Position numbers and translations under genes: made by a program
The notes under the pieces: model-generated
Database searches by the model: none
The model's input: only the letters and a program-made list of their open reading frames with translations
What the model was told of the DNA's origin: nothing
In this document: in pieces, positions 43,409 through 56,968 of the stretch
How positions within the stretch are numbered: the stretch's first letter is position 1
Layout of the letters: the number at the start of each line of letters is the position of its first letter
DNA from: Polyangiaceae bacterium
GTDB lineage: Bacteria; Myxococcota_A; Polyangia; Polyangiales; Polyangiaceae
Reading direction: 5' to 3'
Assembly: GCA_023150915.1 (NCBI GenBank)
Contig: JAKLKA010000002.1
Coordinates: 66,338 to 130,337 of the forward strand
Length of the DNA: 64,000 nucleotides

Positions 43409-43613
43409 GCGCCGGTCAGGGTAGCTCCGCGTGACCCGATTTGGGACACCGCCTGCCGCCCCCAGCGGAAAGCAGCGTCAGCCCGTTGACGACAAATGTG
43501 ACCATGCCCAGCCGCCTGCAAAACTCGCGCGGGCCAGGGTCCCATTTTCTACCGGTTGGCGATTGAACCCTGGCCCAAAGCCGTGTATCCCCGCCAGCTC
43601 GGGAGGTTTCTCA

Positions 43614-46600
43614 ATGAAACTCAGACTAATAAAGACAGACGGGCTTAGGAAGCTCGCCGTCCTTTCCCTCACGGCCACCCTTGGCGTGAGCGGCTTGGTC
43701 GGCTGCGGTGGGGACGACGAGGGGAGCGGGGGATCCGGCGGCGGCAAGGGCGGCTCCGGGGGCAGCACGGGCGGCACCGGCGGTGGCGGCACCGGCGGCG
43801 GCGGCACCGGCGGCACCGGCGGCGGCGGCACCGGCGGCCAGGGCGGCATTGCTGGCAGCGGCGGCGGCGGCACCGGCGGTATCGGCGGTGGCGGCACCGG
43901 TGGCGGCGGCACCGGCGGCACCGGCGGCACGGTCAGCAACCCGTGCGCGACCCCCACGTTCGCGCCCCCGGCGGGCACGTACACCACCGCGCAGAGCGTC
44001 GTCATCTCGACGACCACCGCGGGCGCCACGATCTACTACACGACGGACGGGACCAACCCGAACAAGAACAGCGTCGTGTACAGCGCGCCGATCGCCGTCG
44101 GCGCCGACATGACCATCCGCGCGATGTGTGAGGCCCCCGGCTTCACCGACTCGACGGTGGGCGTGGCGATCTACGACATCAACATCGATCCGGGCAGCGT
44201 GGTCCCGCCGAACCCGAACCCGGCGGCTGGTACGCAGGAGAACGACTATCTCCTGTCGTTGACCACCACCACCCCGGCGGCCACCATCTGCTTCACCCTC
44301 GATGGCTCGACCCCGGTCTGCACCAACGGCGTGTGTCAGGGCACGGCTCAGACCTACAACGCCCAGACGCAGGTTCCGATCAACGGGCAGATCACCAACC
44401 CCAGCACGGGTGAAGTGACCGTCAACGCCATCGCCTGCAAGGCGGGGATGAAAGACGGCTCGATGCCCGCGCAGAAGTACACCCTGCAAGTTGCCACGCC
44501 CGCGCTCAATGGCCCGGCGCCAGGCACCTGGGGCTACGACCCGACCAACAAGACGCTCATGCCATTGCTCTCGTCGGCGACGACGGGTGCGGTCACCGCG
44601 CGATACACGGCTCCGCCGAGCTCGGCTCCGTCGTGCACCAGCGGTATCTTGGTCAACGGTGGCGCCAACCTGCCCACCAACTGGACCATCAATTCCGAGC
44701 AGGGCAACAAGAGCTGGAGCTTCGCGGCTTGCAAGGCCGGCTACAAGGGCTCGGCGGTCTACCCGGCGGACTACAAGTTCCAGCTGCAGACCCCGACCAT
44801 CACGCCCGACGGCGGCACGTACTACGCTGACCAGTCTGCGGCCATCGACAAGCGCAACGCTGGCGCCGCCGGCACCACCTGGACCTGCACCACCAGCGAC
44901 GGTTCGACGCCGGCTTGCGGCACCACTGCCAGCAGCTGCGCTACCGGCAGCACCGCTTCGTCGATCAACGTCAACAAGACCAGCACGGTGCTGAAGAGCA
45001 TCGCCTGCAACCTGGCGTTCCTCCCGTCCGAGGTCGAGACCAGCGATCCGTTCTTGATGAAGCTTCGGCCCGTCAAGTTCACGCCGGCCACCGGCACTCC
45101 GGTGAACTCGGGCACGGGAAACCTGGCCGTGACCATCTCGCAAGACGGCTCGGGCAAGTCCTACAGCCACATCTGCTACTCGACCACCGCCGCGGTTCCG
45201 ACCTGCGCCTGCACGGGCACCGGGCTGACCAAGGTGAGCGGCAACAGCGCCAACGTGCCGGCTTCGGCTGTCACGGCGAACACCACGGTGTCGGCGATTG
45301 CTTGCGACGACGGCACGGGCGGCTCGAACTTCGAGTCGGCCTCCGGCAGCGCGAACTACCCGTCCGCTTCGACCATGGCCCAGCCGACCATCACGCCGGC
45401 CGCCGGGACCTACAACAACCACCTCAACGTGACGTTCACCAACAACGACACGTCCAAGGCCGCGAAGATTTGCTACACCCTCGACGGTAGCGATCCTTCG
45501 GTCACTGCAGCGACCTGCGCGGCGAGCTCTGGCTCGACCACCTGCGTCCCGGCAGGCACGGTGGGCGCGAACGGTGGCACCACCACCATCAACAACCTGG
45601 TCCAGAAGACCAACGTCACGGTCAAGGCCAAGGCCTGCGACCCGACTCAGGTCAAGAGCGTGTCCTCAGCGGCGTCGAACGCCTATGTGCTCAAGGTCGC
45701 GGTTCCGACCCTGACCACCGGCTCGCCCGCTCCGGGCGCGGTGCCAATCGGCTCGACCATCGCGTGGCAGTCGGCCACCACGGGCGCCAACTTCTACTTC
45801 ACGACGGACGGCACCACGCCGACCTGCGTGGGTGGCGGTACCACGCTCCCCGGTAGCAGCTTCCACATGGTCAACCCGGCCTCGACCACCATCAAGGCCA
45901 TCGGCTGCTCCGCCGAAATGACGGAGTCGGACGTCGCCACTTGGACGTACTCGTACTTCATGCAGGCCCCGAAGATTCTTCCGGCGGGCGGCACGTACAA
46001 CGACTACATCCAAGGCACGGTCACCAACGCGCCGACCAGCACGATCGAGAGCGCGGATCACCCGTACCACTCCACGTATTCGAACTTCTTCTGCTACACG
46101 TTCGACGGCAGCACGCCCACGTGCACCCCGTCGGGCTGCGGATTCGGTTCGAGCACGATTAGCTGCGGCGGTGGCGGTTGCACCACGTTCATCCCCGTCT
46201 CGGCCACGCTGAAGGTGGTCGCGTGCAGCAACAACGGCTTGCCGGCTTCGGCCGCGTCCAGCGAGACGTACCAGCTCCAGGTTGGGCCGATCGCGCTCTC
46301 GCCGAGCCCGGCAGCAACGTACTCGTCGCCGCAGGCCGTCACCGCAACGGTGAACCCCGCGCCGACCATCGCGGCTGGCTACACCCTGTGTCACAAGGAA
46401 GGTGCAACCAGCATCCCGCCCCAGCCGAACTTCTGCGGCAAGACGGCCCTGGAAACCTACCTCGGGACGGGCTGGAGCTGCACCGACTACACGACCGGCG
46501 GCGCCAAGCCCATTGCCAACCTGAACGTGACGACCGCGACCTCCGTCGTGGCGTGCAAGGCGGGCATGGTTTGGTCCACGGTCCAGGGTACGTACTCGTT

Positions 46601-47171
46601 CAACCCCTACGCCCACACCATCACCCTCGACGGCGCCAACGACTTCAGCGCTGCGAACGATGCCCTCGACACCGGCGCCGGCGACGTCGCCTACATGTCG
46701 TGGGACGCGACCAACCTCTACATCGGCTACAAGGGCTTCACGCCCCTGAACGGTGAGACGGTCAGCGTGTACTTCGGCAACGGCGTGGCCGGAACGACCA
46801 CCCCCGACGGCGCGGGCCACCCCACGCTGCCGAAGAACCTGCTCTATCGCCTGGTGTGGAAGAACGACACGCTGTCGGCCAAGCTCCGCCAGTGGACTCC
46901 GGGCGCGCCCGGGTCCTGGGGCGACACGGCCATCACGGTTGACCTCGGGTACACCGGCGGCGTGAGCAACGATTACGTCGAGTTCCGGATCGCGCGCGCC
47001 GCGGTCGGCAGCCCGACCATCGTTCACATGGCCGGTGGCTTGGTCAACGCAGCGGGTACGACCTACCTGTCGGTGTTCCCGAACCCGCCGAACACCAACG
47101 CAAGCTGGACTCAGACTTACATGTTCGAGCTCCTTGGCGCGGCAACGCCCAAGGCCTCGGCAAAGAACTGA
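43614..47171 (+). CDS. Giant lipoprotein with chitobiase C-terminal-type repeats
   Basis: This encodes 1185 residues from an ATG with a GGGAGG site. The lipobox is LVGC (Cys30), then a long Gly/Thr linker (about 36-104). About nine repeats of roughly 95 residues follow, each with a PAAGTY opening and a TIYYTTDGTNP-type hairpin (also TICFTLDGSTP, KICYTLDGSDP, NFYFTTDGTTP). These match the chitobiase/hexosaminidase C-terminal (CHB_HEX_C) fold. The last 180 residues (from ITLDGANDFSAANDAL) look like a CBM9/DOMON-type beta-sandwich (YMSWDATNLYIGYKG). No catalytic domain is present, so it is probably a surface adhesin or glycan-binding protein. A strong terminator follows. Confidence 0.8.
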   Translation: MKLRLIKTDGLRKLAVLSLTATLGVSGLVGCGGDDEGSGGSGGGKGGSGGSTGGTGGGGTGGGGTGGTGGGGTGGQGGIAGSGGGGTGGIGGGGTGGGGTGGTGGTVSNPCATPTFAPPAGTYTTAQSVVISTTTAGATIYYTTDGTNPNKNSVVYSAPIAVGADMTIRAMCEAPGFTDSTVGVAIYDINIDPGSVVPPNPNPAAGTQENDYLLSLTTTTPAATICFTLDGSTPVCTNGVCQGTAQTYNAQTQVPINGQITNPSTGEVTVNAIACKAGMKDGSMPAQKYTLQVATPALNGPAPGTWGYDPTNKTLMPLLSSATTGAVTARYTAPPSSAPSCTSGILVNGGANLPTNWTINSEQGNKSWSFAACKAGYKGSAVYPADYKFQLQTPTITPDGGTYYADQSAAIDKRNAGAAGTTWTCTTSDGSTPACGTTASSCATGSTASSINVNKTSTVLKSIACNLAFLPSEVETSDPFLMKLRPVKFTPATGTPVNSGTGNLAVTISQDGSGKSYSHICYSTTAAVPTCACTGTGLTKVSGNSANVPASAVTANTTVSAIACDDGTGGSNFESASGSANYPSASTMAQPTITPAAGTYNNHLNVTFTNNDTSKAAKICYTLDGSDPSVTAATCAASSGSTTCVPAGTVGANGGTTTINNLVQKTNVTVKAKACDPTQVKSVSSAASNAYVLKVAVPTLTTGSPAPGAVPIGSTIAWQSATTGANFYFTTDGTTPTCVGGGTTLPGSSFHMVNPASTTIKAIGCSAEMTESDVATWTYSYFMQAPKILPAGGTYNDYIQGTVTNAPTSTIESADHPYHSTYSNFFCYTFDGSTPTCTPSGCGFGSSTISCGGGGCTTFIPVSATLKVVACSNNGLPASAASSETYQLQVGPIALSPSPAATYSSPQAVTATVNPAPTIAAGYTLCHKEGATSIPPQPNFCGKTALETYLGTGWSCTDYTTGGAKPIANLNVTTATSVVACKAGMVWSTVQGTYSFNPYAHTITLDGANDFSAANDALDTGAGDVAYMSWDATNLYIGYKGFTPLNGETVSVYFGNGVAGTTTPDGAGHPTLPKNLLYRLVWKNDTLSAKLRQWTPGAPGSWGDTAITVDLGYTGGVSNDYVEFRIARAAVGSPTIVHMAGGLVNAAGTTYLSVFPNPPNTNASWTQTYMFELLGAATPKASAKN

Positions 47172-48659: not shown

Positions 48660-50351
48660 TCAGCCGGCGATCACGTCTTCGACGCGCATCTCGACTGCGT
48701 CCCCGCCCCGCCAGGCGTCGCGCCGCAGCCGGCCAAGCACCACCACCTGGCCGCTGAGCGAGGCCGCCTTCGACCCCATGCTCACGCCGAAGCCGCTCAT
48801 GCGTTGGGCGCCGGGCAGCTCGAGCTCGAGCTTCAGGTGACCGCCCTTCACCTCGCGGGCCGCGACCAGCTCAGCGCGCAGCGCCACCCGCGGCGCGGGG
48901 TTGCCCTGCCCGCACGGCTCGAGTCGCGCCACGTCTGCCAGCACCCGCGCCGGCGTGTCGCTCGAGTGAAGCCAGACCGTGTCGGCGTGCTCGTCGCCGG
49001 CGTCCAGAGCAGGTGCGCTCTCGATGGCGCGCTCGAAGGCGTCGCGCAGGTCGCCCAGGCGATCGAGGCGGACCTCGACCCCGGCAGCCGCCTGATGACC
49101 GCCGAAGCGATCGAGCACCTCGCCGACCTGAGTCAGTGCGTCGTGCAGGCGCGCTCCCTTCGGGCCGCGCACCGAGCCGCGGCCGTGCCCGCCGGGCTCG
49201 AAGCCGATGGCGATCACTGGCTTGCCGTAACGCGAGACCAGACGCCCGGCCACGATGCCGACGATGCCGTGGCTCCACCCCTCGCGCCCGACCACGATCG
49301 CAGGGCGTTGGTGATAGCCAGCCTCTTCGATCTCGCGCACGGCCTCGGCGATCATCTTTTCTTGGATGGTGCGGCGCTCGGCCTGCAGGCGCTCGATCTC
49401 GGCACCCAGCGCCCGGGCGTCCTCGTGGCTCTTGGCCAACAGCAGGTCCAGCGCCAGATCGGGCCGCCCGAGCCGACCGGGCGCGTTGATGCGGGGCGCC
49501 AGACGAAACGCCACGTCTTCCCCCGAGAGGGCCTGGGTGGCGTCCACCCGGGCGAGCTCGAGCAGGGCCCGTACGCCGGGACGGCGGCCCTCGGCCAGTG
49601 TGCGCAGACCGGCGCGAACCAATGCGCGGTTGTCGCCGTCGAGCGGGGCAACGTCGGCGATGGTCCCGATGGCGACCAGATCGAGCCAGCTGCGCAGATC
49701 CAGCGCCTGGCCCAGGCGCGCGCGCACTGCTGCGCCCACGCTCAGCACCAGCCCGCACGACGCCAGGCCCTTGTAGGGGAAGGCGCATTCGGGGCGGTGC
49801 GGGTTCAGGAACGCAACCGCGGGCAGTGGCTCGCTCGGGACCAGGTGATGATCGATCACGATCACGTCGATGCCCCGGGCCCGCACATCGGACAGCGTGG
49901 CGTGATCGGACGAGCCGCAGTCGCAGGTCACCAGCAGCTTGGCGCCCGTGGCCACGATGCGCTCCACGGCGGCCGCCGAGACGCCATAGCCGCCGTCGAA
50001 GCGGCTGGCCAAGAGGGGCAGGGGCCGGCCGCCCAGGGCCTCGAGGATGCCCGTCAAGATGGCGGCCGAGGTGATGCCGTCGCAGTCGTAGTCACCGAAG
50101 ATCGCGATGGGCTCGTGCCGTCGGATCGCGAAGGCGATGCGCTCGGCCGCCGCGTCGCGGTCGGCCATGCCGTCCGGCGGCGTCAGGTGCGACAGCTTCG
50201 GATCCATGAACCGAGCCAGGGCCTCTGGCTCGATCAGCCCGCGGCGCGCCAGCAAGTCGGCGACGGTGACGGTGATGCCGGCGGCGCGCGCCAGGGCGTG
50301 GGCCTCGGGCGACGCATCACCCGGAAGGCTCGCACGCGCGGGGCTCGTCAT
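48660..50351 (-). CDS. recJ: Single-stranded-DNA-specific exonuclease RecJ
   Basis: This encodes 563 residues from the ATG at 50351. The DHH domain has IAIFGDYDCDGITSAAIL (metal Asp cluster), VTCDCGSSD and VIVIDHHLVP. The DHHA1 domain contains GIVAGRLVSRYGKPVIAIG and a glycine-rich GRGSVRG. An OB-like C-terminal domain ends the protein. RecJ degrades single-stranded DNA 5' to 3' in recombination and mismatch repair. All catalytic motifs are present and the length is normal. It is a single gene, divergent from the lipoprotein operon at 50525. Confidence 0.95.
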   Translation of the reverse strand: MTSPARASLPGDASPEAHALARAAGITVTVADLLARRGLIEPEALARFMDPKLSHLTPPDGMADRDAAAERIAFAIRRHEPIAIFGDYDCDGITSAAILTGILEALGGRPLPLLASRFDGGYGVSAAAVERIVATGAKLLVTCDCGSSDHATLSDVRARGIDVIVIDHHLVPSEPLPAVAFLNPHRPECAFPYKGLASCGLVLSVGAAVRARLGQALDLRSWLDLVAIGTIADVAPLDGDNRALVRAGLRTLAEGRRPGVRALLELARVDATQALSGEDVAFRLAPRINAPGRLGRPDLALDLLLAKSHEDARALGAEIERLQAERRTIQEKMIAEAVREIEEAGYHQRPAIVVGREGWSHGIVGIVAGRLVSRYGKPVIAIGFEPGGHGRGSVRGPKGARLHDALTQVGEVLDRFGGHQAAAGVEVRLDRLGDLRDAFERAIESAPALDAGDEHADTVWLHSSDTPARVLADVARLEPCGQGNPAPRVALRAELVAAREVKGGHLKLELELPGAQRMSGFGVSMGSKAASLSGQVVVLGRLRRDAWRGGDAVEMRVEDVIAG

Positions 50352-50524
50352 GGGTAGTGGGCTATGGAACACACCGATCTGCGAGCGTCAACGAAGCTGG
50401 CGCACGGCGCGCAAAACTGGCCGCGACAGCGCTGTCATGGCGCACGGCTCGCGCCGACGCCGATAAGGCGCGAATATTCACGGCCCTGATTGCTGGCGCG
50501 TGGATTGCAGAGGCTCGCGTCACC

Positions 50525-52228
50525 GTGGGTGGCGAAACACGACGTCGGATCTCGCTGGTCTTGGGTCTCGCGGCGCTGCCGGCCCTGATGCTGACGGCGG
50601 TGCACTGTGCCGGCGGCAGCGCCGACGAAGGGGGCGCCGCCGGGGCTGGGGGCAACACGGGCCAAGACGCCAGCCCCTGCTACGGCACGAATTGCGGCGG
50701 CTCGGGCGGCAGCTCGAGCGGCGGGGCCGCCGGCAGCGGGCCGCCGCCCGAGAAAGAGATCGAGAGCTCGTTCCGGTCGCCCGTGGCCACCGGCAAGTAC
50801 GTGTGGGCAGCCAATCCCGAGAGCGGTCGCGTTGCCTTGATCGACGCCACCAGCCTCGAGGTCCAGACCTTCGAGGCCGGCAACGGCCCCACGCATCTCG
50901 CAGCGCTGGTCGACCCGTCCGCGCCCAACGCGGCGCGCGCCATCGTGCTCAACGTGAAGAGCCACGACGCCACCGTCCTTTTCGCCGACGAGCAGGGCAA
51001 GGTCACCACCAAGACGGCGGAGGTGCATGCGGACGCGAACGGTTGGACCATCAGCGCCAAGGGGCGCTGGGCCCTGGCCTGGACCGACGCGGCGAAGATC
51101 GAGAAGGCCGACCCCACCGAGGGCTTCCAGGACGTCACGGTGCTCGATCTGGCAGGAAAAGAGCCGAAGTCGGTGCGGCTGAGCGTGGGCTATCGCCCCA
51201 CGCGGGTGTTCATCGCCAGCGACGAGAAGCGCGCCTTCGTGGTCACCGAGCCGGGGCTGTCGATCATCGAGCTCGACGCAGGGCAGGGGCCGTTCGTCAC
51301 TAGCGAGCTGCCCGTCACCGACGACCCGCTCGAGAGCCCGGCGTCGCGCGACGTGTCGGTCACCCCGGACGGAGCGTGGGCGCTGGTTCGGCGCGACGGC
51401 TCGAGCGACGTGGGGGTGGTCTCGCTGGCGGACGGCAAGCGTGTGAGCGTGAAGCTGTCGGGCCCGGTCACCGATCTCGATCTGAGCGACGACGGCTCGC
51501 GCGCCATCGCGGTGGTGCGGCAGCCCAGCGTCAGCGCCGACGCTGGCGCCGACGACGCCGCGCCGCCGAGCACGAGCTCGGACGTGGCGCTCTTGCCCAT
51601 CCCGGGGATCTTCTCCAACCCGACCACCTTCGACACCAAGACGATCGATGGCGAGTCGTTCGGCAGCGTGTCGCTCAGCACGGGCGGCGGAGTGGCGTTG
51701 CTGTTCACCAACGCCACTCCGAACGATCACCTGACCCTCCTGAACACCGCGCCCGGTGCCGGCTATCTGACGCACCGCACGGTGGCCCTCAAGGCTCCGG
51801 TCAAGGCGGTGTTCCCCGCGCCCGACGGCTCCCACGCGGTGGCGCTGCTCGCGCCCAGCGCCGGCAGCACGAAGGCGGGGGCGTTCAGCGTGATCCCGGT
51901 CAGCGCCGACCTTCCCCCGAAGATCCAGGGCACCGACGCCCCGCCGGTGGGCGTGGCCATTCAGGGCAATCGCGCGCTGATCACCGTGCGGGAAGACGCG
52001 AAGAAGCTGTACGCCACGTACCTGGTCCGCATGCCCGAGCTGCAGATCGATCCCTTCAAGCTGTCGAGCCCGCCCCTTGCCACCGGCATGGTCCCCGCAG
52101 TGAACGTGGGCTACGTCGCGCAAGAGCACCCCGAGGGCCGCATCACCTTCGTCACCCTGCAAGACGGCAAGGCGCGCACGCTCACCGGCTTCGAGCTCGG
52201 CGCCAAGGTCGTGGACGGGAGCCAGTGA
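50525..52228 (+). CDS. Propeller-like lipoprotein 1 of a surface operon
   Basis: This encodes 567 residues from a GTG at 50525, chosen because it precedes a proper signal (RRRISLVLGLAALPALMLTAVHC, lipobox Cys). A Gly/Ser linker runs to about 75. The rest is a series of WD/YVTN-like beta segments: GKYVWAANPESGRVALIDATS, IVLNVKSHDATVLF, RVFIASDEKRAFVVTEPGLSIIEL and VTDLDLSDDGSRAIAVV. That predicts one or two beta-propellers. It is paralogous to the next gene, with long stretches near-identical. The stop overlaps that gene's ATG by 1 base. The role is unknown; a surface binding protein is likely. Confidence 0.75.
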   Translation: MGGETRRRISLVLGLAALPALMLTAVHCAGGSADEGGAAGAGGNTGQDASPCYGTNCGGSGGSSSGGAAGSGPPPEKEIESSFRSPVATGKYVWAANPESGRVALIDATSLEVQTFEAGNGPTHLAALVDPSAPNAARAIVLNVKSHDATVLFADEQGKVTTKTAEVHADANGWTISAKGRWALAWTDAAKIEKADPTEGFQDVTVLDLAGKEPKSVRLSVGYRPTRVFIASDEKRAFVVTEPGLSIIELDAGQGPFVTSELPVTDDPLESPASRDVSVTPDGAWALVRRDGSSDVGVVSLADGKRVSVKLSGPVTDLDLSDDGSRAIAVVRQPSVSADAGADDAAPPSTSSDVALLPIPGIFSNPTTFDTKTIDGESFGSVSLSTGGGVALLFTNATPNDHLTLLNTAPGAGYLTHRTVALKAPVKAVFPAPDGSHAVALLAPSAGSTKAGAFSVIPVSADLPPKIQGTDAPPVGVAIQGNRALITVREDAKKLYATYLVRMPELQIDPFKLSSPPLATGMVPAVNVGYVAQEHPEGRITFVTLQDGKARTLTGFELGAKVVDGSQ

Positions 52229-53850
52229 TGATACGCGCGACCTTGATCGGGGTGTTCGGCGCAGCGCTCTCGGTGTTCTTGTTGCACTGCGGGGCCGACG
52301 ACGGCAGCGCCGCGGGCGGTGCCCCGGCCGGCGGCATGGGCGGAAGCACTGCCGGCGGCGGCGGCGGCGGACTTGGCGGAAGCGGCACGGGTGGGGGCAC
52401 CAGCGTCGACGCCGGCATCGACGCGCCGCCCGAGAAGGAAGTCGAGAGCTCGTTCCGGTCCCCCGTGGCCACCGGCAAGTACGTGTGGGCGGCGAACCCC
52501 GAGAGCGGGCGGGTCGCGCTGGTCGACGCCACCAGCTACGACGTGAAGATCGCAGAGGCCGGTCATGGGCCGACCTACCTGGCCGCGATCCCCGGCGGCA
52601 GCACCAACGCGGCCATCGTGCTCAACGTGAAGAGCCACGACGCGACCCTGTTCCGCGTCGCCGCAGACGGCGCGTTCTCGCAGAAGACCCTGAAGACCCA
52701 CAGCGGCGCGAACGCCTGGGCGGTGAGCCCGGGGGGCAAGTGGGCGGTCGCCTGGACGGACGCGTCGGCAATGCAGAACCCGGACCCGACCGACGGCTTT
52801 CAGGACGTCACGGTCATCGACCTCGCGCCGGGCAAAGAGAGCGCGAAGATCTTGAGTGTGGGCTATCGCCCGGCCCGCATCGGCTTTGCCAGCGACGAGA
52901 CCCGGGCGTTCGCGGTGACCGAGCCGGGCATCTCGGTGATCGATCTCGGCGCTGCGGGCACCAGCGTCAGCGCGCTGGTCAAGGTCACCGACGACCCCCT
53001 CGACAACCCGGCGGCTCGTGACGTCACGCTCACGCCCGACGGCGACTGGGCGCTGGTCCGGCGTGACGGCAGCGCCAGCGTGTCGTTCGTGTCGCTGAAG
53101 ACCGGCACGCGCACCGATCTGCCGCTCTCGGGCCACGTCACCGATCTCGATCTGTCGGACGACGGCCAGCGCGCGGTGGCCGTGGTGCGCGACACCTCGG
53201 AGGTGTTCGTGCTGCCGGTGCCCGGTGCCGCCAGCGACCCGAACAGCATCGACAAGCAGGCCATCGCCGGCGAGCTGTTCGGCAGCGTGGCACTCTCTAC
53301 CGATGCCAGCGTGGCGCTGCTCTACACCAACGCGGTCGCCAGCGACCACCTGACCATCTTGAATCTGGTGCCGGGCCCGGGCTATCTGTCGCACCGCACC
53401 GTGGCGCTGAAGGCGCCGGTGGCCGCCGTGTTCCCGGCGCCAGATGCCCAGCACGCCCTGGTGCTTCAGAAGACCCTGGCGGGCAGCACCAAGGCAGGCG
53501 CGTTCTCGGTGGTGTCCACCGTGGCCCAGCTGTCGCCCAAGATCTTGGGTACCGACGCCCCGCCCAACGCCGTGGCCATTCAGCCCGCGCCCAAGAGCGA
53601 ACACGCGCTGGTCACGGTGCGCGACGATCTGAAGAAGGTCTTCGGCGTGTACCGCGTCAAGCTCTCGACCCAGCAGGTGGACTTCGACAAGCTCGCGAGC
53701 CCGCCGCTCGCCACCGGCATCGTGGCCGCTGCCAACAAGGGCTACGTCGCGCAGCTTCACCCCGAGGGGCGCATCACCTTCATCGACTTCGCCACCGGCG
53801 AGGTGCGCACGCTCACCGGCTTCGAGCTCGGAGCCAAGGTCGTCGAATGA
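52228..53850 (+). CDS. Propeller-like lipoprotein 2 (tandem paralogue)
   Basis: This encodes 540 residues. The signal is MIRATLIGVFGAALSVFLLHC with the lipobox Cys at 21, followed by a Gly-rich linker. The body repeats the propeller pattern of the preceding protein and shares with it the segment ESSFRSPVATGKYVWAANPE, plus GYLSHRTVALKAPV, VFPAPD, EGRITF and RTLTGFELGAKVV. It is therefore a tandem duplicate. The start shares a base with the upstream stop (TGATG), and its end lies 11 bases before the third gene. Presumably both paralogues work in one complex. Confidence 0.75.
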   Translation: MIRATLIGVFGAALSVFLLHCGADDGSAAGGAPAGGMGGSTAGGGGGGLGGSGTGGGTSVDAGIDAPPEKEVESSFRSPVATGKYVWAANPESGRVALVDATSYDVKIAEAGHGPTYLAAIPGGSTNAAIVLNVKSHDATLFRVAADGAFSQKTLKTHSGANAWAVSPGGKWAVAWTDASAMQNPDPTDGFQDVTVIDLAPGKESAKILSVGYRPARIGFASDETRAFAVTEPGISVIDLGAAGTSVSALVKVTDDPLDNPAARDVTLTPDGDWALVRRDGSASVSFVSLKTGTRTDLPLSGHVTDLDLSDDGQRAVAVVRDTSEVFVLPVPGAASDPNSIDKQAIAGELFGSVALSTDASVALLYTNAVASDHLTILNLVPGPGYLSHRTVALKAPVAAVFPAPDAQHALVLQKTLAGSTKAGAFSVVSTVAQLSPKILGTDAPPNAVAIQPAPKSEHALVTVRDDLKKVFGVYRVKLSTQQVDFDKLASPPLATGIVAAANKGYVAQLHPEGRITFIDFATGEVRTLTGFELGAKVVE

Positions 53851-53861
53851 GAGGAACTGGG

Positions 53862-55454
53862 ATGAAACGCTCGCTTCTGACCGCCATCACCCTGCTCGCC
53901 GTCGCTGGCTGCGGCGATCGCCCGGCCAGCTGGGACGAGAAGGCCCAGCTTCCGCTGAAGACCGCGGGGCTCACCGGTTCGGTGGCGGTGGTCGACACGG
54001 CCCTCGACCGGGTGCTGATGCTCTCGGCCTCGTCGGACCGCAGCCTGCACGTCGCCGCCCTGGGCGTGGGGAAGAACGTCGTCACCACCGAAGTCTCGCG
54101 AGATTCGGGCTCGCTGTTCGTGCTGTCGAAGGGCGTGCAGCCGCGGCGCAACCCGGACGACGAGCTGCCTTCGCTGACCATGATCGACGGCAGCAGCCAG
54201 CCGAAGGTCACCGCGCGCTACACCCTCACCGATCCACTCCAGGGCATCGCCGTCGACCCGCAGGGTGAATGGGCGGTGGTCTACGACGCCGGCGGCATCG
54301 TGGTGAACCCCAACGAGCTGATCTTCGTGAAGCTGTCAGATCCGAATTTCGAGCCGGTGTCGAAGACGCTGCGCAGCTTCGGGGGGCGCCCCGAGCGCCT
54401 GACCTTCACCAGTGAGCTCAGCGTGCCGAACGGCCCACCCCGGCGCTTCGCCCTGGTCGAGACGGGGCAAGACGTGTCGCTCATCGACCTCTCGGATCTC
54501 ACTCGCGACGAGGTCACGCTGATCTTGCCCAAGACGCCCTCGGGTGCGAGCGGCGCGCCCGCCGAGGTCGCGTTCCACGATGGCGATCCGGCCGACCCCG
54601 CCGACGCGCGCATCGCCGTGCGCCTGGCGAACGACCCCAACGTGATGGTGGTCGACCTGGCCACGCCGCCGGCGGGCGACAAGAAGCCGTTCAAGGCCAC
54701 GGTGAACGTGGCCGACGTGGGCGGCGTGCCCAGCAGCATTGCCTTCGTGCAGACCGACGGCGGGCTGCGCTTGGCGGCGCTGGTGCCGTCGACCCAGAGC
54801 GCGACCTTGATCGACCCGGCGACCACCTTCCCCGAGACGGTGGACTTCCCCAAGCCCTATTCGCGCATCACCCGCGTCACCGACGACGTCTCGAACAAGC
54901 CGCAGAAGAGCGACGTGGCGCTGCTCTGGAGCGACTCGACCACCGGCATCGCGTTCTGGTCTCTGGGCAAGACCAGCGGCACGCCCTTCCGCAGCGTGGA
55001 CGACTATGACATTGGCATCGCCGTCTCGAAGGTGAAGAGCGTGCCGGGTGACCAGTTCGCGCACCTCAAGATCCTCGAGAGCACCACCGCCAGCGAGTTC
55101 TACGTGCTCGACCTCGACAAGCGGCAGAGCTTCCCCATGCTGACCAACGCCGGCGGGTTCCAGCTGGGCGTGTCCCCCGACGGCCAGCGCGCCTGGGCGC
55201 TTCGGCCCGGGACACCCGATTTTGCCAGCATCGATCTTTCCAACCTGCACCCCACCTCGATCCAGGTCGAGCGCGACGTGGCAGCGGTCTACGACATCGA
55301 ACGCCGCGACTCGGGGCGCGCCGCCATCGCACTCCACGCCAGCGAGCACGGCTCGGCCGTGTCGCTGGGCGCCACGGTGCTCGACGGGCTCGACCCCGAC
55401 ACCGCGAAGAGCCGGTTTCATCCAGGCCTGTTGCTCGGAGGGCTCCAGAAATGA
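53862..55454 (+). CDS. Propeller-like lipoprotein 3 of the surface operon
   Basis: This encodes 530 residues from the ATG at 53862 (GAGAGGAAC site; an ATG five codons earlier is weaker). The signal is MKRSLLTAITLLAVAGC, lipobox VAGC. It is a diverged relative of the two upstream propeller proteins: VAVVDTALDRVLMLSASSDRSLHV, GIAVDPQGEWAVVYDAGG, FQLGVSPDGQRAWALRPG. It lacks the shared ESSFRSPVATGKYVW segment. The stop overlaps the following gene by 4 bases, so four proteins are translated from one message. Confidence 0.72.
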   Translation: MKRSLLTAITLLAVAGCGDRPASWDEKAQLPLKTAGLTGSVAVVDTALDRVLMLSASSDRSLHVAALGVGKNVVTTEVSRDSGSLFVLSKGVQPRRNPDDELPSLTMIDGSSQPKVTARYTLTDPLQGIAVDPQGEWAVVYDAGGIVVNPNELIFVKLSDPNFEPVSKTLRSFGGRPERLTFTSELSVPNGPPRRFALVETGQDVSLIDLSDLTRDEVTLILPKTPSGASGAPAEVAFHDGDPADPADARIAVRLANDPNVMVVDLATPPAGDKKPFKATVNVADVGGVPSSIAFVQTDGGLRLAALVPSTQSATLIDPATTFPETVDFPKPYSRITRVTDDVSNKPQKSDVALLWSDSTTGIAFWSLGKTSGTPFRSVDDYDIGIAVSKVKSVPGDQFAHLKILESTTASEFYVLDLDKRQSFPMLTNAGGFQLGVSPDGQRAWALRPGTPDFASIDLSNLHPTSIQVERDVAAVYDIERRDSGRAAIALHASEHGSAVSLGATVLDGLDPDTAKSRFHPGLLLGGLQK

Positions 55455-56335
55455 TCCGCCGTATCGTGCTTGCCGGTGCGCTGTGGTCGAGCGTCGCAGC
55501 AGCTCAGGGCGCGCCGCCCGCGGGTGGCGAGCAGCCGCCCGTCGACCAGAAGCCCGCGGTTGCCCCCCCGCCCAGCGCGGCACCCGCCCCGACGCCTGCC
55601 CCCGCGGCCGCGCCGGCGCCCGCCCCTGCGGCGGCCGCTCCGTACTCACCGTGGCTGTCGCCGCCGCGGGCCGAGCCCACGCCGCCGCCCGCCGCGCCGG
55701 ACGCGCCGCCCGAAGCGCCTCTGCCCCCGCCCGCGCCGCCCGGCTGGCAAGTCTGGTTCGGTCTGCGCACCTCGTTCTTCGGCGATCGGGGCTTCGATCC
55801 CTTCTCGAGCAACGACGTGTACCCCACCGGCGGCATCGGCGCTTCGCGCAGCCTGTACCTGTCGGGCCCCCTGTCGTTCGCCGCTGCGCTCACCTACGAC
55901 TTCGGCAACAAGGAAGGCGAAGCGCGGGGCGAGCCGACGTCGCTCGAGACCCATCGGCTGACGATCGGTCCCGAGGCGCGCTATCACCTGCTGCCGCAGC
56001 TCTACGCGTACGTGCGACCGGCCGCCGGCGTGCAACGTACCATTGCCAGCATCGACGACGGCTCGACCGGGGCGACCCTGGCCGCGAAGGACTGGCTCTT
56101 CGCCGCGGACGGCAGCGCCGGGGCCGCGTGGGCGTTCCTCGACGTGCGCAGCAAGCGTGTGCCGCTGATGTTCTGGCTGATCGCCGAGGGCGGCTACGGC
56201 TTCACCCAGTCCAGCGAGCTGAAGCTCGAAGCGGGCGAAGGCTCTGGCGCCCCAGAGCGCACCGCCGCGCTGGATCTGGGTGAGCTCTCCACCACCGGGC
56301 CGTTCTTCCGGGTCGCCGTCGCCGGCACGTTCTGA
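55451..56335 (+). CDS. Outer-membrane beta-barrel-like protein with Pro/Ala-rich stalk
   Basis: This encodes 294 residues. The signal peptide covers 1-19 (cut after VAAAQ/GAP). Residues 20-98 are a Pro/Ala linker. From about 99 the sequence alternates in amphipathic strands (VWFGLRTSFFGDRG, GIGASRSLYLSGPLSFAAALTYDFGN, HRLTIGPEARYHLLPQLYAYVRPAAGV) and ends VAVAGTF with a terminal Phe, as outer-membrane barrels do. With about 8-10 strands it is likely a small barrel. It closes the propeller lipoprotein operon by a 4-base overlap, so it may tether or expose those lipoproteins at the surface (inference). Confidence 0.65.
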   Translation: MIRRIVLAGALWSSVAAAQGAPPAGGEQPPVDQKPAVAPPPSAAPAPTPAPAAAPAPAPAAAAPYSPWLSPPRAEPTPPPAAPDAPPEAPLPPPAPPGWQVWFGLRTSFFGDRGFDPFSSNDVYPTGGIGASRSLYLSGPLSFAAALTYDFGNKEGEARGEPTSLETHRLTIGPEARYHLLPQLYAYVRPAAGVQRTIASIDDGSTGATLAAKDWLFAADGSAGAAWAFLDVRSKRVPLMFWLIAEGGYGFTQSSELKLEAGEGSGAPERTAALDLGELSTTGPFFRVAVAGTF

Positions 56336-56343
56336 AAAAAGGG

Positions 56344-56372
56344 CGCAACTCGCCCGCACCCGCGGCCGAAGA
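56344..56372 (+). promoter_or_regulatory. ECF-type promoter candidate (CGCAACTC-N15-CGAAGA)
   Basis: CGCAACTC starts at 56344 and CGAAGA at 56367, a 23-base offset identical to the element at 47278; both also share an upstream A-run and GGCCGAAGAGGG. A GGGTCC/GGACCC hairpin follows and encloses the GGAGGA ribosome-binding site of the lipoprotein gene at 56393. Confidence 0.5.
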
Positions 56373-56392: not shown

Positions 56393-56968
56393 ATGAAGAG
56401 CGTGATGTTCGGTGTCGTGGCCTTGTTCGCGGTCGGGTGTGCGGGCTCGCAGCCTGCGGTGGCGTATCGTTCAGCCGAGGCTCCGGCCCGCCCGGCCCCC
56501 CAACCGGCCGTCGCGGCCGTCTCCAAGGTCGTCTCCGCCCAGCCCATCGCCCACGCCCCCTCTTCGGCGACCCCTCCGACCCCCGTTGCGCCGCCCGCCG
56601 CCGGGGCTCCCCTGGGCGCAGGGCCCGAGGCGGACGACTGCGCGCACATCCTCAAGCACCTGGGCGAAGAGTCACAGCTGCTCGCTGCGCGGACCGCCGA
56701 CGGGTCCTCGCAGTCTCTGGTTCGGGCCACCAAGGCTTACCTGGAGGCCGTTGCCGTGGTCGACCCGCAGCACCCCAAGCTGCACCACGGACTGAAGGTG
56801 CGTGTTGCCACCATGTCCACCTGGGCCACGCGCGTGGGTAGCTTGATGCTCGAGCCGACCGTGGACGAAGACGAGGTCAAGAAGGACGTCGGAAGTTTCC
56901 AATCCTCGGTCGACGCCATCGGCGAGTACTGCGCACCGTTCGTGGTCGTCCAAGGTGAAAAGAGCTGA
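56393..56968 (+). CDS. Small lipoprotein with helical domain
   Basis: This encodes 191 residues. The signal is MKSVMFGVVALFAVGC, lipobox AVGC (Cys16). A Pro/Ala-rich linker follows to about 78. The C-terminal part (80-191) looks all-helical, with two Cys (DDCAHILKHLGEESQLL and GEYCAPFVVV) that could form one disulfide. No family is recognised. It is preceded by its own promoter candidate, so it is probably independent of the operon upstream. Confidence 0.65.
   Translation: MKSVMFGVVALFAVGCAGSQPAVAYRSAEAPARPAPQPAVAAVSKVVSAQPIAHAPSSATPPTPVAPPAAGAPLGAGPEADDCAHILKHLGEESQLLAARTADGSSQSLVRATKAYLEAVAVVDPQHPKLHHGLKVRVATMSTWATRVGSLMLEPTVDEDEVKKDVGSFQSSVDAIGEYCAPFVVVQGEKS

Follow-up and report, generated by a model that had tools for sequence, protein, structure and literature searches.

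Gene organization of the operon

The DNA analyzed here, referred to as the window, is a 64,000-nucleotide (nt) stretch from Polyangiaceae bacterium (assembly GCA_023150915.1, contig JAKLKA010000002.1, positions 66,338–130,337 of the forward strand), and all coordinates below are those of the window. At 50525–56335 it carries four tightly packed genes that a reading of the letters alone, hereafter the original prediction, had taken for an operon encoding three propeller lipoproteins and a barrel-like protein. This assignment is supported by fold predictions for the second and fourth products, by homology of the third product to the first two, and by lipobox cysteines. We call the predicted products A1 and A2 (together A), B and the barrel.

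50525..52228, + strand: propeller lipoprotein A1 (gene 1, first tandem paralogue); start GTG at 50525, stop TGA
50606–50608, + strand: A1 lipobox Cys, with His at -1; a Gly/Ser/Ala-rich tether of ~64 residues precedes the propeller
52226..52230, + strand: TGATG, stop/start overlap of A1 and A2 (1 base)
52228..53850, + strand: propeller lipoprotein A2 (gene 2, second tandem paralogue); start ATG, stop TGA
52288–52290, + strand: A2 lipobox Cys, with His at -1
53862..55454, + strand: propeller lipoprotein B (gene 3), diverged full-length homologue of A; start ATG, stop TGA
53910–53912, + strand: B lipobox Cys, followed by a short tether
55451..55454, + strand: ATGA, start/stop overlap of B and the barrel gene (4 bases)
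55451..56335, + strand: outer-membrane barrel protein (gene 4); start ATG, stop TGA

The junctions are as originally described: genes 1 and 2 overlap by 1 base, genes 2 and 3 are 11 bases apart, and genes 3 and 4 overlap by 4 bases. An alternative in-frame ATG at 53847 would turn the gap between A2 and B into a 4-base overlap. Such tight overlaps favor coupled translation. By eye, a purine run resembling a Shine-Dalgarno sequence lies just 5′ of each of genes 2, 3 and 4, within the preceding gene for genes 2 and 4 and at the stop codon and in the 11-base gap for gene 3. Because these three genes have purine runs of their own and because A is single or double among relatives, the operon does not fix the A:B:barrel ratio, and the fixed stoichiometry proposed in the original prediction is unsupported.

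Recurrence of the unit in relatives

A search for the same operon in relatives showed that the unit is not local. Protein searches of 59 genomes (the source genome and 58 relatives) found A in 32 or 33, B in 31 and the barrel in 30; the barrel search used a loose expectation value (E) of 0.001, and some weak barrel matches lay elsewhere in the genome. One genome per species was also scanned across 84,980 species with three peptide patterns; a sequence check then confirmed 108 stretches, of which the best 80 were kept and yielded 78 loci; with the window, these make up the 79 sources counted below. The loci come from myxobacterial, delta-proteobacterial or unresolved proteobacterial bins and from one isolate, Minicystis rosea DSM 24000 (L156). 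Early profiles merged A and B, with both drawing both families at E 1e-5, and the counts given here are from separate profiles.

The full unit, A(A)-B-barrel, is present in 69 of the 79 sources and in 69 of the 71 with room for it on the contig. Its order is A-B-barrel in 51 sources, A-A-B-barrel in 14 (window included), A-B-barrel-A in three and A-B-B-barrel in one, and the incomplete cases comprise A-B (six), A-A-B (two) and A alone (two, L176 and L180). In the eight sources with no barrel after B, the contig ends at most 266 bases from B. At one locus (L165, 3680–5184), B is split over two overlapping frames, reflecting a frameshift or an assembly error. Because no cluster of conserved neighbors exceeds 10 of the 79 sources, the unit stands alone; the neighbor clusters include antisense frames. 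Its recurrence in relatives places the packing far beyond chance.

The overlap between B and the barrel gene is itself maintained. With the plausible barrel start nearest the B stop taken in each case, the overlap is exactly -4 or -1 in 51 of 59 loci; the other 10 of the 69 barrel loci had no start under our start rule and were excluded. Because the nearest start had been chosen, shifted controls were run, in which reference points moved by 5 to 60 bases gave a mean of 1.03 and a maximum of 4 of 59 over 300 repeats. From the A stop to the B lipobox Cys the median distance is 60 nt (range 36–236, 76 cases), which leaves space for little beyond a signal peptide.

Under a loose lipobox rule of our own, 91 of 98 A proteins and 76 of 78 B proteins have a lipobox-like Cys, and both families are therefore predicted to be bacterial lipoproteins. 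Asp at position +2 is found in none of the A proteins and in 1 of 76 B proteins. The His at -1 noted for A1 and A2, which is unusual for signal peptidase II, occurs in 9 of the 91 A proteins. The distance from Cys to the first strand has a median of 59 residues in A (75 measured) and 24 in B (53 measured), and the A tether is 28% Gly.

To gauge the spread at the level of the phylum, an even sample of 377 Myxococcota genomes from a larger set was searched at a profile threshold of E 1e-10. A was found in 160 and B in 96; A co-occurs in 94 of the 96 B-positive genomes (the exceptions are G225 and G345, the latter with a 134-residue B fragment), and 66 of the 160 A-positive genomes have no B at this threshold. 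Two sets of distant loci were then compared. In 20 loci from B-positive genomes outside the order (two from the same class and 18 from the same phylum), A lies beside or close to B in every case, a tandem A pair is present in ten, and the barrel was detected in 16; at one locus (L214), A stands on both sides. In the other set, 15 loci from the 66 genomes positive for A but not for B, 14 have a diverged propeller after A and 11 have a detected barrel. The widened profiles used for this second set merged A and B, and "diverged B" here means a propeller at the B position scoring 44–117 bits against the unwidened A profile. Because such a propeller follows A in 14 of these 15 loci, the spread of the unit is probably nearer to the count for A than to that for B. 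We do not claim that the unit is restricted to Myxococcota, as other phyla were covered by the 84,980-species scan only.

History of the A1/A2 pair

The A1 and A2 products share 60% identity across 501 aligned positions, and their genes contain DNA blocks at 74–92% identity. The "near-identical stretches" of the original prediction thus hold for short DNA blocks but are overstated for the pair as a whole. A tree of 67 A proteins, made by a quick method, included all long copies from duplicated loci and every second single-copy protein (30 single copies kept). In it, 13 first copies, A1 of the window among them, form one group (support 92). The second copies fall into a group of 19 rows (support 93) that holds A2, five single copies and one "first copy" from a locus (L161) whose true first copy is a fragment and was left out; both forks lie below the program's star of 95. 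On these clades we reject a recent A1/A2 duplication, and separate A duplications are seen in L141/L142 and in loci of the A-B-barrel-A order. Because A1 groups with first copies and A2 with second copies, with their order kept, two distinct A proteins have probably been maintained for a long time, which suggests that they have different roles or form a hetero-oligomer. In one 40-codon stretch, A1–A2 identity (0.85) is higher than identity to the L127 orthologues (0.67 and 0.79); alignment columns 320–360 and 560–600 show a small A1–A2 excess, and most other stretches show none. These patterns hint at local gene conversion between the two copies.

Family assignment and predicted fold of the propellers

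In pairwise comparison, B resembles A2 weakly (33% over 87 amino acids, E 4e-6) and A1 more weakly still (E 7e-4). Profile-profile comparison, however, aligns A and B over their full length (probability 99.1, E 7.3e-19, 434 columns), confirming that the third gene is a diverged relative of the first two. The proteins of the operon all stay below the curated cut-offs of Pfam and NCBIfam, and the single-repeat model TIGR02276 gives sub-threshold matches only. Against sequences in the PDB, the A profile finds as its best match 1L0Q, an archaeal surface-layer protein of the YVTN type (E 2.2e-12), and also hydrazine synthase beta (E 6.5e-10). Weak matches to the Lactonase family occur in 5 of 64 A members (best 2.7e-5) and to Cytochrom_D1 in 2 of 64. 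Sortilin is not among the PDB matches of the A profile, although this absence does not exclude kinship. Among PDB sequences, B matches Lp49 alone (E 0.047). At the C terminus of A, a TGFEL motif is conserved.

Structures were predicted for the products of genes 2 and 4. The A2 model (64 alignment rows, mean predicted local distance difference test score [pLDDT] 88.0, predicted template modeling score 0.84) has 40 strands between residues 80 and 530, arranged as ten four-strand blades. When profiles of the ten blade segments of A were compared with one another, 25 of 45 pairs matched at E < 1e-3, mostly in register and involving nine of the ten blades; blade 2 is marginal (0.0014), several alignments are short, and the comparison was run without an unrelated control. 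From its blade repeats and YVTN-like sequence, A is predicted to be a YVTN-like β-propeller.

Structural comparison of the A2 model gave Z values that were mostly tied. The top row, ODA16 (Z 18.6), covers only 289 residues, and 1L0Q ranks high (Z 17.4) with 263 residues at a root-mean-square deviation (rmsd) of 8.5. Tandem propellers superpose at an rmsd of ~8–17, whereas chains of eIF2A and eIF3b cover 358–371 residues at an rmsd of 4.0–4.7. The eIF2A propeller has nine blades. A Foldseek search with the A model returned mainly tandem WD40 proteins that superposed poorly (rmsd ~16–18 for most) and was uninformative. Position pairs between blades 1 and 10 covary above those at other separations, both with gaps counted (147 rows, ~107 effective) and with gaps masked after ten incomplete rows were dropped (137 rows; for example, 23.6 per 1000 pairs versus 1.3 to 6.9). 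This signal is confounded by phylogeny, and it is weak because a few columns recur among the pairs. Taken together, the kinship of the blades, the nine-blade superposition and the covariation of blades 1 and 10 favor a model in which A is likely a single closed ten-bladed ring. Because B aligns with A over its full length, it is probably of similar size.

Conservation is unevenly distributed over the predicted ring. Loops on the b-c/d-a face, the usual ligand-binding side of propellers, are better conserved (0.362 and 0.393) than those on the opposite face (0.329 and 0.282), a difference of 0.073 reached in 3 of 10,000 permutations. Several of the invariant or near-invariant Arg, Asn, Gln and His residues of A map to strand ends or loops of the b-c/d-a face.

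The barrel protein

The product of gene 4 has a signal-like N terminus, a Pro/Ala-rich linker of ~75 residues, a predicted barrel at residues ~99–294 and a C-terminal Phe. Its AlphaFold2 model (57 rows) has a mean pLDDT of 86.9, and ten-residue blocks from residue 101 onward score 89–98, most of them at least 95. The ten strand segments of the model (residues 99–293), which we grouped into eight staves, span ~195 residues. Structural comparison ranked a model of E. coli OmpA first (Z 17.3, 164 residues, rmsd 2.9), and other close matches are Legionella porin III, OmpW (Z 16.5) and NspA (Z 16.2); Z differences below 1 are ties, which puts NspA just beyond a tie. At the sequence level, Pfam OMP_b-brl matches 6 of 57 barrel members (best 1.7e-8), the barrel of the window itself matches no Pfam family at E 0.01, and PDB sequences give chance-level matches only (E 0.09 and above). 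A C-terminal Phe or Tyr, as is usual for outer-membrane barrels, ends 55 of the 57 chains. The "barrel-like" product of the original prediction is thus confidently predicted to be an eight-stranded barrel of the OmpA/OmpW type. Pfam scans found no OmpA-like peptidoglycan-binding domain, and the barrel extends to the last residue.

Both ends of outer-membrane barrels are usually periplasmic, and we assigned the outer loops by that rule. Of the predicted outer loops, L1 (0.399) and L2 (0.51, two residues) are conserved at or above the level of most strands (0.28–0.41). The best conserved positions include Arg and Glu in strands, several residues in the first outer loop (112–122) and an Arg in loop 2. 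These loops mildly favor a partner on the outside.

A model for the operon and its alternatives

Gene order, overlaps, lipoboxes, the barrel fold, the propeller fold of A, the homology of B, the spread through the phylum and the maintenance of the A pair are computed properties of the unit. A model that adds physical association, membrane side, ligand binding and function goes a step further, and the one that we prefer is tentative, with a probability we would put a little short of even. In this model, the four genes would specify an outer-membrane complex anchored by the barrel, in which the propellers bind something, probably at the cell surface. The eight-stranded barrel would be the integral membrane part and docking platform. 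A, as a rule in one or two copies, and B would be lipid-anchored to the outer membrane and associated with the barrel, B being held close by its short tether and A riding on a flexible Gly/Ser/Ala-rich tether of ~60 residues. The conserved loop face of A would bind a ligand or partner protein, making the whole a binding or receptor platform. A more elaborate version, which we consider doubtful, is an undescribed Myxococcota machine in which two or three ten-bladed propellers surround one barrel, with the A tethers threading or clasping it, to form a surface receptor. Its ten-bladed rings would possibly be the first known in bacteria.

Several observations weigh against a surface complex. Conserved gene order can result from co-regulation without contact. 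The outer side of the barrel is assigned only by the usual rule, and under it outer loop L3 is poorly conserved (0.204), whereas periplasmic turns T1 (0.329) and T2 (0.357) are strand-like rather than low, with T3 alone low (0.148). A Gly-rich tether is also found in an unrelated lipoprotein of the window (43431–47171) and is therefore no special sign of surface display. A was undetected in 217 of the 377 Myxococcota genomes, including 131 of 235 good-quality ones; since A went unmatched in the majority of sampled genomes, the unit is not essential. Among the distant loci, A follows B and the barrel in L211, L213 and L217 and follows B in L216. The barrel was undetected in 4 of the 20 loci of the first set (L206, L207, L212 and L216, none at a contig end) and in 4 of the 15 of the second (L228, at a contig end, and L231, L235 and L237, which are not).

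The main rival to the surface complex has the propellers facing the periplasm as a BamB-like scaffold beside the barrel, within a module for envelope assembly or stabilization. On this account, the short tether of B would hold it near the inner leaflet, and the Pro/Ala-rich extension of the barrel would sit in the periplasm. A 2012 survey describes BamB as a propeller lipoprotein of the outer membrane that has been proposed to act as a scaffold and reports a lack of evidence for it as a BAM component in delta-proteobacteria, which a substitute scaffold would fit, although putative BamB genes are noted there in Haliangium, Myxococcus and Anaeromyxobacter (PMC3359395). We nonetheless judge a periplasmic scaffold unlikely. 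An assembly factor is expected to be near universal, yet A has the patchy distribution given above; genes 1–3 match no BamB/PQQ-repeat family in Pfam or NCBIfam up to E 1; and conservation is relatively high in two of the predicted outer loops of the barrel.

The four products could instead be co-expressed but physically separate envelope proteins that share an operon by chance. The varying copy number of A and its varying position (before B, after the barrel, or both) fit this explanation, as contact between propellers and barrel is our inference. It is harder to reconcile with a three-part unit that persists without a widely shared neighbor, recurs in distant loci and keeps its tight overlaps across the 79 sources, and we regard it as slightly less likely than the scaffold. 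We consider it very improbable that the propellers have a catalytic or redox function, as lactonase, cytochrome d1 and hydrazine synthase beta do. Although weak matches to all three were found, YVTN-like propellers commonly give such matches; for the proteins of the window, all of these fall far below curated cut-offs, and by eye no CxxCH heme motif is present in the three propeller sequences.

Relation to known systems

In keeping with the original prediction, which knew of no described counterpart, we found no description of this operon in the titles and abstract beginnings of open-licence literature on myxobacteria, surface lipoproteins and propellers. Among the closest known systems is the BtuG-BtuB surface complex of Bacteroides, in which a propeller lipoprotein and an outer-membrane barrel are likewise encoded in one operon; BtuG2 has seven blades, binds cobalamin in the central cavity of the propeller and caps a TonB-dependent transporter (PMC10404256). 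A, in contrast, is predicted to have ten blades, and the partner shared here by two or three propellers is one small eight-stranded barrel that by its predicted fold is not a TonB-dependent transporter. BamB and the BAM complex likewise pair an outer-membrane propeller lipoprotein, with a proposed scaffold role, with a barrel (PMC3359395), but the operon differs in the missing BamB family match, in an OmpA-like rather than BamA barrel and in its patchy occurrence. YVTN/BNR-like propeller proteins have also been mentioned for Microvirga and Archangium (PMC12919014).

For the individual proteins, 1L0Q is the best PDB sequence match of the A profile and ranks high in structure, and A differs from it in its ten predicted blades, its lipid anchor and the conserved TGFEL motif. 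The 1L0Q propeller has seven blades. In forming an unusually large single ring, A would resemble nine-bladed eIF2A and eIF3b and ten-bladed sortilin; sequence kinship with A is not shown for any of these, and sortilin belongs to the Asp-box propellers of eukaryotes. A survey from 2013 called it "the only known 10-bladed" propeller (PMC3797127). The barrel shares the eight-stranded fold of OmpA and OmpW but has, in place of the C-terminal peptidoglycan-binding domain of OmpA, an N-terminal Pro/Ala-rich extension.

The A component of this envelope module is detected by profile in 160 of 377 sampled Myxococcota genomes, yet the proteins of the window have no Pfam or NCBIfam name at cut-off. Should the ring indeed have ten blades, bacterial propellers would span a wider natural range of sizes, and if the complex forms, it would represent a barrel-lipoprotein architecture unlike the TonB-dependent ones. 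Myxococcota are best known for predation and social behavior, and the unit offers a handle on their surface, with Minicystis rosea as an isolate that carries it.

Surroundings of the operon

Upstream, recJ (48660–50372, minus strand; DHH, DHHA1 and RecJ OB domains) diverges from the operon at a distance of ~150 bases, and counterparts of its frame lie upstream of the unit in a few relatives (a cluster of four sources, window included). Farther upstream, 43431–47171 (plus strand) encodes the large lipoprotein-like protein mentioned above, which is very Gly-rich after its Cys, contains four stretches of the Chitobiase/beta-hexosaminidase C-terminal type and two Fn3-associated stretches, and is likely an envelope lipoprotein.

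Downstream, a lipoprotein gene at 56393–56968, 57 bases past the operon, was considered as a fifth member and rejected, its profile having found only itself among 35 sources. Just after the barrel gene, a hairpin at 56341–56361 with a T6 run lies on the minus strand and fits a terminator on that strand only; terminator-like hairpin sites were not above chance (two found versus 2.5 expected). Finally, 7 of the 79 sources (L137, L152 and five more) carry a same-direction gene at a median of ~300 bases upstream of A, whose product by eye is a candidate penicillin-binding transpeptidase-like protein.

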